From an uncultured Pseudoflavonifractor sp. (GTDB taxonomy: Bacteria > Bacillota_A > Clostridia > Oscillospirales > Oscillospiraceae): a stretch of 7,269 bases of DNA. The stretch covers positions 1 to 7,269 of the forward strand of contig CANPNN010000066.1 in NCBI GenBank assembly GCA_947575475.1, in the 5' to 3' direction. The translations under genes were made by a program, and so were the position numbers. This document shows positions 2,409-7,269 of the stretch, piece after piece (within the stretch, counting starts at the first letter, position 1; each line of letters opens with the position of its first letter). The notes below the pieces were generated by a model. The model was not told where the DNA came from, ran no database searches, and was given only the letters and a program-made list of their open reading frames with translations.

Positions 2409-2504
2409 TTCAGAAATTTTTATCCCTTGCGCAGGGTCGGGTTTTATGGTACTGTACATAATGGAGTTTTTCTCCCCATCTCCCCTATTTGGAGGGATCC
2501 CCAG

Positions 2505-4373
2505 ATGACCGGACTTTATGAGGCCTATCTTTATAATATCATTGCCGCCCAGGACCTGGCCAAACCTCATATCTCCCCGGACATGTCCGGGGAGCAGATC
2601 ATCGCCGCCATCCGTTCCGGGGCGGAGAGGCTGTTTCAGATCCACCAGGACAACGACCGCATTTTAAAGGATATCCTCTTCTCCCGAAAGCCCCAGGAGC
2701 TCTCCGCCGAAGAGGCCGGGCAGCTCTCCGAGCTGGCCGGGGCGCTTTTCAACCACAACCGCAGCCCCGATGTGGGGGTGGCCTACCGGATCCACAGGCT
2801 TCTCTACGCATATGCCCAGCACCACAGAGACCGGGCGCTGATGATCCGGGAGCTCTACTTTCAGGGCATCACCCTCATGTACCTCAACGTGCGGGACAGC
2901 AAATTGGGGCTGGACCTGTTTGTGGAGGGGATTGACCAGTATTTCAGCGCCGGCGCCGCCTGCCTGGAACAGTATGAGGAAATTCAGGACCCCGAGACCC
3001 GGGCCTACATCATCCGCTGTCTGGGCAACCTGAAATACGGCCTTACCAGCTACCGGGGCTCCCCCTCTCCCAAGGGCGAGCTCCATATGCGGGACGGCTG
3101 GGAGGACTACATGGCCTGCTTTGACCGGGCCATGGCGGTGATCCAGTCCCCCCACTACCGCTCTCTGGACCCGGGTCTTCCCTGGGACAGCTTTGCCTAC
3201 GCCATGCACTATGACCGCACAGAATTTCTCACCGTCCTCCAGCACAACCACGACCCGGTGATCGCCCAGGCCATGCTGGAGTCCGCCCAGTTCATCCAGG
3301 CCTACCAGTCCCAAAGCGCCAACGTTCAGGAGCGGTTCGTCAGCAACCGCACCACCCGGTATACCTGCCTGGCCGCCCGGTACCACGCGGGTCTGGCCCC
3401 CCTGGAGGAACTGCTGGAGACCCTTTACGACATGTGTGAGGAGGCCGACATCCACGACTTCTCCGGGGACAATATCTGGGTCATCCTCTGCGCCCCGGAG
3501 TATCTGCTCACCTACGCCCGCCGGCTCTCCCCCGAAGATTTCCTCCGCTGGGAGCCCCGGGTCCAGCACATCATCGAAAAGCAGAAGGAATACCTCTTCC
3601 TCCTGCCCCGGAACGAGTATTCCCTCCAGGTCTCCCGGTCCCTCCAGAACATCATCAGCCAGTCCACCGAGACCGACGAGCAGTTCAAGCGCCGCATCCT
3701 GGACTACATCTTGGCCTGTCACGCCCCCACCTTCGTCCACTCCAAGATGGTGGCCCTGCTGACCCGGCGGTTCTGTGAGCGGCTGCTGGAGACCGCCCCC
3801 GCCCTCCTCAACGGCGCCTTTGACCTGGACCTTGGCCCGGAGCACCCGGAAAACCACAAGATCCTGCTGGAGCTGGCCTACCTGTGCGGGCTCTACCATG
3901 ACCTGGGAAAGTGTATGCTCCTGAACTCCGTGGGCATGTACAGCCGCAGCCTTTTGGACGAGGAGTTCCTGTGCATCCAGCACCACCCCGTCTTCGGCTG
4001 CAATCTGCTGGAGTCCCTGGGCATGTCCTCCATCTCCAGCGTCTCCTACTTCCACCACCGCTCCTACGACAGAGCCGGCGGCTATCCCAAGGGGGAGAGG
4101 CCCCTTCCAGAGAACGTCCGCCGGATCATCGACATCGTCACGGTGGTGGACTCCCTGGATGCGGGCACCGACAACATCGGCCGCAGCTACGCCGCCGCCA
4201 AGACCTACGACCAGCTGGTGGAGGAGCTGCTCCGGGGCAGCGGCACCCGCTATGCCCCGGAGATCGTGGCCCTGCTGCGGGACGACCCCTTCCGCCGGGA
4301 GATCGGGGAGTTCATCCAGAATAACCGGATCGCGGTCTATCTGGATGTGTACCGGAAAAAGCAGGAGATCTGA
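2505..4373 (+). CDS. HD-GYP-type phosphohydrolase domain protein, 622 aa
   Basis: HD-GYP domains are metal-dependent phosphodiesterases, typically acting on cyclic di-GMP. The domain occupies about residues 405-610. It shows the ordered metal-ligand set: H412 (in HSKM), H465-D466 (HDLGK), H493/H494 (HHP), H517-H518, the GYP signature at 526-528 and D549 (VVDSLDA). R560-S561-Y562 sits where the family usually has RPYR. Two departures are visible: HHR where HHE is usual, and AGGYP where the usual form is GSGYP. The first ~400 residues look helical, perhaps TPR-like, and I do not recognise the domain. There is no signal peptide or membrane segment, so it is probably cytosolic. The ATG at 2505 was chosen because GGAGGG at 2491-2496 lies 8 nt upstream; an in-frame TTG at 2427 has no such site. 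It is transcribed alone, divergent from hsp20, and ends at a strong terminator. Cyclic di-GMP as substrate is family inference only. Confidence 0.88.
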   Translation: MTGLYEAYLYNIIAAQDLAKPHISPDMSGEQIIAAIRSGAERLFQIHQDNDRILKDILFSRKPQELSAEEAGQLSELAGALFNHNRSPDVGVAYRIHRLLYAYAQHHRDRALMIRELYFQGITLMYLNVRDSKLGLDLFVEGIDQYFSAGAACLEQYEEIQDPETRAYIIRCLGNLKYGLTSYRGSPSPKGELHMRDGWEDYMACFDRAMAVIQSPHYRSLDPGLPWDSFAYAMHYDRTEFLTVLQHNHDPVIAQAMLESAQFIQAYQSQSANVQERFVSNRTTRYTCLAARYHAGLAPLEELLETLYDMCEEADIHDFSGDNIWVILCAPEYLLTYARRLSPEDFLRWEPRVQHIIEKQKEYLFLLPRNEYSLQVSRSLQNIISQSTETDEQFKRRILDYILACHAPTFVHSKMVALLTRRFCERLLETAPALLNGAFDLDLGPEHPENHKILLELAYLCGLYHDLGKCMLLNSVGMYSRSLLDEEFLCIQHHPVFGCNLLESLGMSSISSVSYFHHRSYDRAGGYPKGERPLPENVRRIIDIVTVVDSLDAGTDNIGRSYAAAKTYDQLVEELLRGSGTRYAPEIVALLRDDPFRREIGEFIQNNRIAVYLDVYRKKQEI

Positions 4374-4381
4374 TCCTTAAA

Positions 4382-4424
4382 AAAAGAGGACCCGAACCGT
4401 GGTGCGGTTTGGGTCCTCTTTTCT
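4382..4424. terminator. Bidirectional intrinsic terminator between convergent genes
   Basis: A 15-bp stem (4385-4399 with 4405-4419, one G-T wobble) has a 5-nt loop. T residues follow on the plus strand and an A-run precedes it (4379-4385), giving a T-run on the minus strand. It begins just after the HD-GYP stop at 4373 and ends just before the permease stop at 4434. It therefore serves both convergent genes. Confidence 0.92.
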
Positions 4425-4433
4425 ATCCGTTTC

Positions 4434-5768
4434 TTAGTACTTACCCAGGTTGCCGGAGTTGTGGCCGTCATCCTTGCCAAACTCGTAGTCGTTGCCGGGC
4501 AGGACCGCGTTGAGGAGGATCCCCGCGATGGCGGCGATGGCAAGGCCCGTGAGGGTCACGCTGGCGCCTCCCACCTGGAAGGTGAGCCCCCCGGAGAAGC
4601 CCAGGCCGCAGACCAGGATCACCGCGGCGATGATGAGGTTCCGGGAGTTGGTGAAGTCCACCTGGTTCTCCACCACGTTGCGTACGCCGATGGCAGAGAT
4701 CATGCCATAGAGGATGAAGCTGACGCCCCCGATGATGGCGGAGGGCAAGGCCCCGATGAGGGCGGCGAACTTGGGGCTGAAGGACAGGACCAGGGCGTAG
4801 ACCGCCGCCAGGCGAATGACCTTGGGATCATGGACCCGGGAGAGGACCAGCACGCCGGTGTTCTCGCCGTAGGTGGTGTTGGCCGGGCCGCCGAAGAGGC
4901 CGGCCAGAGAGGTGGCGATACCGTCGCCGATGAGGGTCCGGTGGAGCCCCGGCTCCTCCAGGAAGTTCTCCCCCACGGTGGCGGAGATGGCGGACATATC
5001 GCCGATGTGCTCCATCATGGAGGCGATGGCGATGGGGGCCATGACCAGGATGGCGCTGAGATCAAACTTGGCCACGCTGCCGCCAAAGTCGGTGACGAAG
5101 GGCTGGAAGCCGACCCAGGCGGCGTCCTTCACGCCGGTAAAGTCCACCTGTCTTGCAAGGATGGCCACAATGTAGGCTCCCACCACACCCAGCAGGATGG
5201 GAATGATCTTCACCATACCCTTGCCCCAGATGTTGCACACAATGATGATAGCCATCGCCACCAGGGCCAGCCACCAGCAGGTGGAGGCGTTGCTCACAGC
5301 CGAGGGGGCCAGGTTCAATCCAATGCAGATGATGATGGGCCCGGTGACCACCGGGGGCAAAAACCGCATGACCTTGTGGACCCCCACCGCCTTGACGATC
5401 AGGGCCAGCACCAGATAGAGAAGACCGGCCACCACAATGCCGCCGCAGGCGTACTGCAGCTTTTCGCCCGCCGCCATGGTGGCGTAGGCCCCGTCGCTCA
5501 TACCGGCAATGGTGGCAAAGCCGCCCAGGAAGGCAAAGGAGGAGCCCAGGAAGGCAGGCACCTTAAATTTGGCGCACACATGGAAGAACAATGTGCCGAT
5601 CCCGGCAAAGAACAGGGTGGTCTGGATATTCAGCGGCAGGCCGTAGCTCTGGACCAAAATGGGTACCAGGATGGTGGCCCCGAACATGGCGAACATGTGC
5701 TGAAGCCCCAGCAGCAGCATTTTGGGCACGCCCAGCTTACGGGCGTCGCGGATCACGTCTTGATTCAT
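4434..5768 (-). CDS. uraA: NCS2-family nucleobase permease, probably uracil:H+ symporter (UraA/PyrP-like)
   Basis: This is an inner-membrane importer that couples nucleobase uptake to protons. At 444 aa it is close to E. coli UraA (429 aa). Family landmarks are present in order: GLQHMFAMFGATILVP (21-36), KVPAFLGSSFAF (69-80), EHIGD (253-257), DPGLHR-like EEPGLHR (271-277) and the substrate-loop motif NTTYGENTGV (297-306). Multiple hydrophobic segments fit the 14-TM fold. E253 and E302 correspond to the uracil-contacting UraA E241 and E290. Position 257 is Asp where UraA has His245. The NTTYGEN motif favours uracil over xanthine, whose carriers usually have Gln-Asn there, but a different base is possible. 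The ATG at 5768 has AAGGGAG about 9 nt upstream. The gene has its own promoter and an attenuator-like leader, and the shared terminator lies at its 3' end. Confidence 0.92.
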   Translation of the reverse strand: MNQDVIRDARKLGVPKMLLLGLQHMFAMFGATILVPILVQSYGLPLNIQTTLFFAGIGTLFFHVCAKFKVPAFLGSSFAFLGGFATIAGMSDGAYATMAAGEKLQYACGGIVVAGLLYLVLALIVKAVGVHKVMRFLPPVVTGPIIICIGLNLAPSAVSNASTCWWLALVAMAIIIVCNIWGKGMVKIIPILLGVVGAYIVAILARQVDFTGVKDAAWVGFQPFVTDFGGSVAKFDLSAILVMAPIAIASMMEHIGDMSAISATVGENFLEEPGLHRTLIGDGIATSLAGLFGGPANTTYGENTGVLVLSRVHDPKVIRLAAVYALVLSFSPKFAALIGALPSAIIGGVSFILYGMISAIGVRNVVENQVDFTNSRNLIIAAVILVCGLGFSGGLTFQVGGASVTLTGLAIAAIAGILLNAVLPGNDYEFGKDDGHNSGNLGKY

Positions 5769-5818: not shown

Positions 5819-5874
5819 AATGGGCAAAAAAAAGACGACCACAAATGTGATCGTCAATAAAAAGATTGCCCATT
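5819..5874 (-). repeat. 9-bp inverted repeat enclosing the leader terminator
   Basis: AATGGGCAA (5819-5827) and TTGCCCATT (5866-5874) are perfect complements and flank the terminator hairpin symmetrically. The 3' copy in the RNA overlaps the end of the terminator T-run, so this outer stem can only form in read-through transcripts. The 5' copy in the RNA encodes leader codons 21-23 (AAT GGG CAA). A second upstream CCCATT (5909-5914) can pair with the same AATGGG. Confidence 0.6.
5826..5855 (-). terminator. Leader (attenuator) terminator upstream of the permease gene
   Basis: On the minus strand, GACGATCAC (5855-5847), loop ATTT and GTGGTCGTC (5842-5834) form a 9-bp stem with one wobble pair, followed by eight T residues (5833-5826). 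It lies between the promoter and the permease start codon, so it must be bypassed for expression. Its 5' arm begins within the TGA stop codon of the leader ORF. Confidence 0.88.
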
Positions 5875-5934
5875 AAAAAAGGAAAGAAAAGGCCCGTATC
5901 CAAAGCGAATGGGTCGCCCCGTCAGCTTGTTCAT
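5854..5934 (-). CDS. 26-aa leader peptide, U-rich (putative pyrL-like attenuation ORF)
   Basis: A short ORF starts at the ATG at 5934, 23 nt or so after the predicted transcript start. It has an excellent Shine-Dalgarno, AGGAGGG at 5942-5948, 7 nt away. It encodes a basic start (MNKLTGRPIR) followed by the hydrophobic FGYGPFLSFFNGQSFY and ends at TGA 5856-5854. All five Phe codons are UUU, and the adjoining Leu, Ser, Pro, Asn and Tyr codons also favour U (CUU, UCU, CCU, AAU, UAU), although the neighbouring genes favour G or C at third positions. The stop codon overlaps the first bases of the terminator stem, so a ribosome finishing this ORF would cover the stem's 5' arm. The peptide itself probably has no function; translating it is the likely point. 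No homologue is recognised. Confidence 0.65.
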   Translation of the reverse strand: MNKLTGRPIRFGYGPFLSFFNGQSFY

Positions 5935-5941
5935 GACCGAT

Positions 5942-5948
5942 CCCTCCT
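5942..5948 (-). promoter_or_regulatory. Strong Shine-Dalgarno of the leader ORF
   Basis: AGGAGGG on the minus strand lies 7 nt before the leader ATG. This is as good as any ribosome-binding site in the window and is the main evidence that the 26-codon ORF is translated. Confidence 0.75.
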
Positions 5949-5964
5949 TTCCTCATTGGGTGGT

Positions 5965-5993
5965 ATCATACCAGACCGCCCCCCAGATGTCAA
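5965..5993 (-). promoter_or_regulatory. Sigma-A promoter of the permease transcript
   Basis: TTGACA (5993-5988), a 17-nt spacer, then TATGAT (5970-5965) on the minus strand: consensus -35, 5/6 -10 and ideal spacing. The predicted start is near 5957, giving an untranslated leader of about 189 nt. A-rich tracts lie directly upstream on this strand (about 5998-6030) and could act as an UP element. A promoter this strong suits downstream control by attenuation. Confidence 0.9.
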
Positions 5994-6109: not shown

Positions 6110-7269
6110 ATGAAAACTCCTTTTGTGACCCTCCCCCAGCTCCAGGCCATCACCGAGACCTACCCCACTCCCTTCCATCTTTACGATGAGAAGGGCATCC
6201 GGGAAACCGCCCGGAACCTGAAGGCCGCCTTCGCCTGGAACCCCGGCTTCCAGGAGTATTTCGCCGTAAAGGCCACCCCCACCCCCGGCATCCTGAAAAT
6301 TCTCCAGGAGGAGGGCTGCGGGGTGGACTGCTCCTCCCTCACCGAGCTCATGCTCTCCGACAAATGCGGCTTCCAGGGCCACGACATCATGTTCTCCTCC
6401 AACGAGACCCCCGCCTGCGAATATCAGCTGGCGGACAAGCTGGGGGCGGTCATCAACCTGGACGACTTTACCCACATCGACTTTTTGAAGGACACCCTGG
6501 GCTATATCCCCGAGACCATCTCCTGCCGCTTCAACCCCGGCGGGGTCTTCCAGCTGGGAGCGAGCAAGGAGGGCTTCCAGGTCATGGACACCCCGGGAGA
6601 CAGCAAATACGGCTTTACCCGGGACCAGCTCTTTGAGGGCTTTAAAAAGCTAAAATCCATGGGGGCCAAGCGTTTCGGCATCCACGCCTTTTTGGCCTCC
6701 AACACCCTCTCCAACGACTACTATCCCGCCCTGGCGGGCATCCTCTTCCAGCTTGCCGCCGACCTGGAGCGGGAGACCGGCTGCGATGTGTGCTTTATCA
6801 ACCTCTCCGGCGGCGTGGGCATCCCCTACCGCCCCGACCAGCCGAAAAACGACATCTTCGCCATCGGGGAGGGTGTCCGGGAGCAGTTCGAGAAAATTCT
6901 GGTCCCCGCGGGCATGGGGGACGTGGCCATCTACACCGAGCTGGGCCGCTATATGCTGGGCCCCAACGGCTGCCTGGTCACCAAAGTCCTCCACTTCAAG
7001 CACACCTACAAAGAGTATGTGGGGGTGGACGCCTGCGCGGCCAACCTCATGCGCCCCGCCATGTACGGGGCCTACCACCACATTACGGTGATGGGCAAGG
7101 AGGACAAGCCCCTGGACCACACCTACGACGTGGTGGGCTCCCTGTGCGAAAACAACGATAAATTCGCCATCGACCGGGAACTGCCCGAGATCGAGACCGG
7201 GGACCTGCTGGTGATCCACGACAGCGGCGCCCACGGCTTCTCCATGGGCTACAACTACAACGGCAAGCT
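6110..7269 (+). CDS. lysA: Diaminopimelate decarboxylase-like PLP enzyme (LysA family), first 386 residues
   Basis: LysA converts meso-diaminopimelate to L-lysine and CO2, the last step of lysine synthesis in the cytosol. It is a fold-type III PLP enzyme. Visible features are EYFAVKA with the probable PLP lysine K54, the DCSS segment (73-76), GIHAF with H192, the glycine-rich LSGGVGI (232-238), ELGR (277-280), C346-E347 in SLCENNDKF, and the C-terminal GDLLVIHDSGAHGFSM leading to YNYNGK. Compared with typical LysA, three motifs differ: ELGR replaces EPGR, GIHAFLAS replaces GLHCHIGS, and GAH replaces the GAY near the end. This agrees with a divergent LysA-like branch I have seen in anaerobes, so activity on another amino acid is possible. 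The ATG at 6110 follows GAGG (6097-6100) by 9 nt. The gene has its own promoter, is divergent from the permease and runs off the right edge with only a short C-terminal stretch missing. Confidence 0.82.
   Translation, partial: MKTPFVTLPQLQAITETYPTPFHLYDEKGIRETARNLKAAFAWNPGFQEYFAVKATPTPGILKILQEEGCGVDCSSLTELMLSDKCGFQGHDIMFSSNETPACEYQLADKLGAVINLDDFTHIDFLKDTLGYIPETISCRFNPGGVFQLGASKEGFQVMDTPGDSKYGFTRDQLFEGFKKLKSMGAKRFGIHAFLASNTLSNDYYPALAGILFQLAADLERETGCDVCFINLSGGVGIPYRPDQPKNDIFAIGEGVREQFEKILVPAGMGDVAIYTELGRYMLGPNGCLVTKVLHFKHTYKEYVGVDACAANLMRPAMYGAYHHITVMGKEDKPLDHTYDVVGSLCENNDKFAIDRELPEIETGDLLVIHDSGAHGFSMGYNYNGK

Follow-up and report, generated by a model that had tools for sequence, protein, structure and literature searches.

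The window, that is, the whole 7,269-nt stretch analyzed here, carries on its minus strand a gene for an NCS2 nucleobase permease (4434-5768, ATG at 5768; TIGR00801 above cut-off). Its best specific model is the uracil permease NF007995, with 311.8 bits under a cut-off of 477, the xanthine permease model scoring 210.8 bits, likewise under cut-off, and the protein is most likely a uracil permease. The region upstream of it (minus strand, 5993-5826) comprises a sigma-70-type promoter TTGACA-17-TATGAT with TG ahead of the -10 box (5965-5993, 11 of 12 matches), a Shine-Dalgarno (SD) sequence AAGGAGG with a full 7-base match (5943-5949), the leader ORF MNKLTGRPIRFGYGPFLSFFNGQSFY (5854-5934; ATG at 5934, 26 codons and the stop codon TGA at 5856-5854), and an intrinsic terminator formed by a 9-pair stem-loop (5834-5855) and a U8 tail (5826-5833). 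The first two bases of the terminator stem are shared with the TGA. Promoter, strong SD, 26-codon ORF, stop/terminator overlap and downstream permease had all been described correctly in the initial annotation of this DNA, as had the exclusive use of UUU for Phe (TTT in five of five codons). The leader peptide has no NCBIfam match.

That annotation overlooked a further element. In the predicted minimum-free-energy fold, a U/C-rich stretch near the end of the ORF, UCUUUCCUUUUUU (5887-5875, minus strand), which is the putative pause tract, forms the 3' arm of a helix whose 5' arm (5953-5941) includes the SD of the same leader; this SD-sequestering helix was also examined by a swap test over 50 leaders (see below). 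In addition, AATGGGCAA ahead of the terminator and TTGCCCATT behind it (5866-5874 and 5819-5827, minus strand) could pair around the terminator, and this potential is mostly retained in the related locus L093.

Several other features were observed in the window. The permease gene and a convergent ORF (2427-4373) with no NCBIfam family are separated by a hairpin (4379-4424), preceded by an A-run and followed by a T-run, which looks like a shared two-way terminator. A small heat-shock gene (1767-2201), whose best NCBIfam match is below cut-off, is preceded by TTAGCACTC-N9-AAGTGCTAA (2382-2408), which resembles the CIRCE operator of HrcA. The divergent gene at 6110-7267 on the plus strand matches lysA (TIGR01048) with 250.8 bits, below the cut-off of 297.9, and probably encodes a diaminopimelate or related decarboxylase.

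Occurrence of the leader among permease loci

Relatives of the permease were collected from named species genomes (the best 80 loci of a longer list) and from 150 genomes drawn from the family of the nearest genome, 69 of which had a permease match. Thirty of these entered the analysis as loci and 20 as further upstream regions, G134, the split G114 and weaker matches being left out. The deduplicated set comprised 128 permease upstream regions, the window included, and a terminator ending within 110 nt of the permease was detected in 53 of them. Of these 53 regions, 43 have a short ORF with its own SD that extends to the hairpin, and in 39 the stop codon of such an ORF lies within the hairpin or no more than 14 nt ahead of it. 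When the 150 nt preceding each terminator were shuffled with dinucleotides preserved (200,000 simulated draws), the result was 5.9 on average and 18 at maximum, which argues against a chance origin of the ORF. Short ORFs are common, but given this null expectation and the recurrence of the arrangement across many genomes, a chance ORF in an ordinary 5' UTR is scarcely credible as an explanation.

The leader ORFs are 15-38 codons long, and in 26 of the 39 leaders the stop codon starts zero to two bases ahead of the stem. Four ORFs (L005, L014, L080 and L103) run through the terminator; that of L014 ends at the permease start codon. Among the best 80 named loci, the leader was found by rule in 14 of 16 Oscillospiraceae-titled loci versus none of 38 from Lachnospiraceae. 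Two candidates accepted by the first classifier (L019 and L048) were judged to be ends of upstream genes, and the rule was then tightened; L006, L067, L075, L146 and L149, positive by eye, were missed by the final rule and stand outside the 39. A search of plasmid DNA with the leader sequence returned no match.

The leader was also seen in a metagenome-assembled genome (MAG) labelled Spirochaetales (L008), and 24 loci were examined of the 48 genomes with a permease match in the spirochaete-labelled family. Twelve of the permeases are close homologues of the window permease (72-77% identity), and the leader is present by rule in ten of these and by eye in L227, the remaining locus, L229, having no upstream DNA. 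None of the 12 more distant permeases of this family has it. The 39 leaders and 11 spirochaete-family ones (L227 delimited by eye) constitute the set of 50 used in the swap test; 45 of the 50 score 8 or more for the promoter, with the estimated transcription start at a median distance of 24 nt ahead of the leader ATG.

A quick tree was built for 87 permeases, with the leaderless rows of the best 80 named loci randomly thinned to 18, short loci excluded and the labels of L006 and L067 set by eye. The spirochaete-labelled permeases represent a supported group within a clade, starred on the tree, of 44 rows, 42 of them leader-bearing, that is otherwise clostridial; their join with a clostridial row has a support of 85, which is not a bootstrap value. 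This nesting points to transfer of the permease together with its leader. Eleven changes of the leader label are required by the permease tree, and the leader has thus often been gained or lost.

The window leader (5856-5959, minus strand) is most similar to that of L093 (1317-1417 of its upstream region), and both loci have a divergent decarboxylase and a small heat-shock gene nearby. Their permeases are placed far apart in the tree, that of the window being closest to L001 (89%), and the permease gene may have been replaced while the resident leader stayed in place. A different leader was noticed in L095, immediately ahead of the minus-strand permease gene (about 2815-2925), although this permease belongs to the leader clade: here a GGGAAACGG...CCGTTTCCC hairpin encloses a very short ORF.

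The U-rich tract and its complementarity to the leader SD

The leader peptides are not conserved (pairwise local alignments have a median score of 15, and the highest-scoring pairs are near relatives). The initial annotation had predicted that relatives would keep the ORF, the SD, the U-richness and the stop/terminator overlap without keeping the peptide, and this pattern was found. In the 39 leaders the U fraction is 0.27 at positions -40 to -31 relative to the stem and 0.41, 0.48 and 0.54 in the next three 10-nt bins, U amounting to 46% of the 30 nt before the stem. Codon choice follows the same trend. The share of NNU among NNU and NNC codons is 0.71 in the last eight codons before the stem, 0.51 in the rest of the leader and 0.16 in the permeases of the same loci, and UUU constitutes 73% versus 24% of Phe codons. 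Since the GC bias may be weaker in intergenic DNA than in genes, the gradient within the leader is the better control.

Phenylalanine itself accounts for 19% of the last eight codons versus 5.5% in the permeases, and at least two Phe codons occur among the last ten in 24 of the 39 leaders, as attenuation of the pheL/hisL type in response to Phe might predict. However, eight leaders have one Phe in these ten codons and seven have none; no stretch of codons for a single amino acid, as expected of the pheL/hisL type, is conserved; the U-ending codons increase for several amino acids rather than one; and the target gene is a nucleobase permease. In addition, pairing with the 5' arm of the terminator, as expected of an antiterminator, is not enriched (mean z +0.29, with 2 of 39 leaders below -2). 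The initial annotation had ranked Phe-tRNA sensing below pyrimidine control, and in agreement with that ranking we consider it very improbable.

Folding of the leaders is nevertheless more stable than that of their shuffles (mean z -1.95, 17 of 39 under -2). In the predicted folds this extra stability is provided by pairing of the U/C-rich tract with the SD region of the same leader, often together with the start codon, at least two bases of which are paired in 31 of the 50 leaders. As a purine-rich SD can pair with any pyrimidine tract, each SD was tested against the tracts of all other leaders. The own SD-own tract total was -1126 kcal/mol versus -895 (sd 23) for permuted pairs, with none of 20,000 permutations as low; after correction for row, column and GC, own pairs had a residual of -4.57 (permutation sd 0.46), with 48 of 50 leaders below zero, the SD segment being taken from 28 nt before the ATG, against a median estimated start at 24 nt, so that its first bases may precede the transcription start in some leaders. 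Four control segment pairs were not more negative than chance in the same test. The complementarity of SD and tract is specific.

According to the computed ensembles, the tract can close the ribosome-binding site once it has been transcribed: the predicted SD openness falls from about 0.5 before the tract to 0.14 after it, and from 0.49 to 0.01 in the window. Shuffled tracts leave an openness of 0.22 versus 0.14 for native ones (p = 6e-7), suggesting that a generic tract of such composition would do much of the closing and that the native one does better. In four aligned leaders of one clade, 92% of the cells are paired, compared with 48-64% when the sequences are slid, and covariation in that clade is not beyond shuffles (98 of 500 reach the observed value).

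The same excess of structure could be explained by regulation of termination through a protein or small ligand with affinity for the SD-tract helix or the leader. Such an explanation is improbable, since the peptide and the inner leader sequence vary freely, the leaders tried have no Rfam match, and the terminator 5' arm lacks the enriched pairing mentioned above. A more serious rival is an SD lock devoid of UTP sensing, where the tract would exist solely to pair with the SD and read-through would report ribosome loading, growth state or temperature. The strength and specificity of the complementarity speak for it, the complementarity accounts for part of the U bias, and the target-gene survey covered only permease relatives and three pyr genes. 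On the other hand, U is also enriched at positions of the tract that are unpaired (0.45 over 565 positions versus 0.28 over 706 unpaired positions of the proximal leader, p = 4e-10), which indicates that SD pairing is not the whole cause of the bias, and U peaks in the 10 nt adjoining the stem, where the predicted pairing is lowest. We regard a lock of this sort as unlikely, though worth keeping in view. The initial annotation had ascribed the U bias to selection for U content, and that view may hold for the unpaired positions of the tract, with SD complementarity as a second cause of the bias.

PyrR and other pyrimidine genes

Pyrimidine genes of Firmicutes are commonly controlled at premature terminators by attenuators that bind PyrR. 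The leaders described here are similar in the use of a premature terminator, and PyrR adjoins the same permease in seven of eight PyrR genomes, its match lying about 40-90 nt upstream of that of the permease. They differ in having a translated leader in place of a protein-bound RNA, and PyrR is under cut-off in the leader genomes searched, with the exception of G020. A canonical PyrR element had been named beforehand as the alternative controller, and neither the window nor the leaders tried yielded one. In particular, the PyrR-binding element RF00515 was not detected at the window leader, nor were Rfam riboswitch or T-box families matched in the window. The Rfam search over 16 permease loci, the L129 pyrB locus and E. 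coli gave no match in a leader; the matches outside leaders were a lysine riboswitch in L003 and a tRNA in L099.

The PyrR model exceeded its cut-off in one of 32 genomes (24 picked as leader-bearing and eight as leaderless), in eight of 48 family genomes and in none of 20 genomes of the spirochaete-labelled family; many of the genomes surveyed are MAGs and possibly incomplete. All six loci examined with pyrR directly upstream of the permease lack the leader. Among the 47 family genomes with an upstream region, the leader occurs by rule in none of seven with PyrR versus 21 of 40 without it (Fisher p = 0.012). The remaining 19 PyrR-less family genomes are leaderless by rule, all eight leaderless picks are likewise without PyrR above cut-off, and in G020 (L055), the single positive among the 32, leader and PyrR occur together with a weak match to the PyrR element. 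Thus, within one family the same permease appears to be served by either of two candidate systems, PyrR or the leader, although the alternation is not strict. PyrR-dependent attenuation of the leader-bearing loci themselves could be argued from the presence of PyrR in eight of 48 family genomes; however, the leader is missing from all seven PyrR genomes with an upstream region, and the RF00515 matches, all of them under the gathering score, are confined to PyrR-bearing genomes (five of eight versus none of 37 others), making this explanation most improbable for the genomes searched.

Other pyrimidine genes were surveyed for the same kind of leader, and a pyrimidine regulon of such leaders was mostly not found among carA, pyrB and pyrE. 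It is absent upstream of 17 carA genes (L181 having just 19 nt of upstream sequence) and upstream of 19 pyrE genes from 22 loci (L210, L214 and L218 excluded). For pyrB, 20 of 30 loci were examined (L122 having little upstream DNA), and one clear leader was identified, L129 of genome G019, whose predicted fold also sets the SD against the tract; L133 is a weak candidate with no supporting fold, and L118, flagged by the rule, was judged spurious. As the biosynthetic genes are mostly leaderless, the case for pyrimidine sensing rests mainly on the identity of the permease, itself a best match.

Proposed mechanism and comparison with known attenuators

The initial annotation interpreted the locus as a pyrBI-like, translation-coupled attenuator sensing UTP, and this interpretation is partly supported. 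In E. coli pyrL, according to PMC10135430, polymerase reaches the terminator when UTP is abundant, whereas under scarce UTP it pauses on the U-requiring template and the ribosome blocks the hairpin. PMC4824070 reports that termination is repressed by a ribosome positioned at a stop codon that precedes the hairpin by a few bases, and that a ribosome rarely catches the polymerase within the first 100 bp unless, for example, pausing couples both, a limit that fits short leaders of the present size with a pause tract. The pyrL pause studied in PMC9291695 seems not to rest on an upstream hairpin.

The leader likely works like pyrBI, judging by its sequence organization. We propose, with a probability of roughly 60%, a pyrBI-like attenuator timed by UTP and equipped with a kinetic SD gate, which would couple pyrimidine supply to uracil uptake. 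At ample UTP, polymerase would quickly cross the U-rich end of the leader ORF, the emerged tract would pair with its own SD and close it ahead of ribosome loading, and the terminator would then fold, leaving the permease off. At scarce UTP, polymerase would be slowed in the U-rich tract, with the anti-SD inside the enzyme or just leaving it, so that the ribosome site would stay open; a ribosome could then load, translate to the stop codon within the terminator stem and cover the terminator 5' arm, so that termination would fail and the permease would be made. We infer UTP as the signal, the pausing, the action of the ribosome and the order of events. The proposal builds on the leader ORF, its SD, the stop overlap, the U gradient, the SD-tract complementarity, the conservation across the clade and the near-absence of PyrR from the leader genomes searched, all established from sequence. 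Counted against it are the coexistence of PyrR and leader in G020, the many PyrR-less genomes that are leaderless, the rarity of such leaders at carA, pyrB and pyrE, the label changes on the tree, the run-through ORFs, the weak covariation in the four-leader clade and the closure produced by shuffled tracts.

Sequence features of the pyrBI class, namely an SD-led ORF, its reach to the terminator and a U-rich transcript, are present, and the putative class assignment is made from these. In the K-12 sequence, E. coli pyrBI likewise has a promoter, an SD-led leader ORF, a U-rich tract and a terminator reached by the ORF, and the predicted fold of pyrL pairs the SD with the U-rich tract, the SD openness falling from 0.4-0.8 to 0. 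The differences are the permease target and the hosts, mostly PyrR-less clostridia and the spirochaete-labelled family; the peptides have no evident relation to that of pyrL, and the ORF, shorter than pyrL, in most cases ends at the stem that pyrL runs through. In this respect L005, L014, L080 and L103 resemble E. coli pyrL, and, conversely, Klebsiella pyrL stops inside the terminator, like most leaders here. Five gammaproteobacterial pyrL leaders were read, with no ORF by rule in Photobacterium and a doubtful ORF call in Aeromonas, and no relatives were found among viral contigs. The SD-tract pairing in four gammaproteobacterial pyrB leaders is not beyond shuffles (z = -0.75, -0.44, -0.12 and -1.03), and therefore the SD lock in E. 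coli pyrL is claimed as a lead only.

Masking of a leader SD by downstream leader RNA has a precedent in the E. coli trp leader, where the masking segment is a distal part of the leader and is not known to be a U-rich tract adjoining the terminator. The leader-peptide attenuators of hisS and hisZ reported in Firmicutes (PMC2965389) encompass a stretch of codons for one amino acid; the leaders studied here share with them a translated leader and a terminator in Gram-positive bacteria, and differ in having no such stretch. What appears to be new is the host range, the target gene and a predicted SD lock that is specific to each locus and made by the putative pause tract. Literature searches over titles and the beginnings of abstracts, with few subscription papers covered and hence weak as evidence of absence, yielded no described leader of this type at a uracil permease and no SD masking in pyrL. 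More tentatively, and at somewhat less than even odds, one RNA segment may serve both as UTP-sensitive pause tract and as leader anti-SD, so that the rate at which polymerase crosses it would determine how long the leader is accessible to a ribosome; such a system may be an alternative to PyrR in Oscillospiraceae, may have moved to spirochaetes with the permease, and perhaps also operates, so far unrecognized, in E. coli pyrBI.

If the proposed mechanism is true, UTP-dependent coupling of polymerase and ribosome, known from enteric bacteria, would also exist in gut clostridia that largely lack PyrR and in spirochaetes, and transcription and translation would have to be functionally coupled at the genes concerned. 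An SD lock is also suggested, as a testable idea, for the classical pyrBI leader, and about 50 natural variants are at hand in which the influence of pause tract, SD masking and stop position on the switch could be measured.
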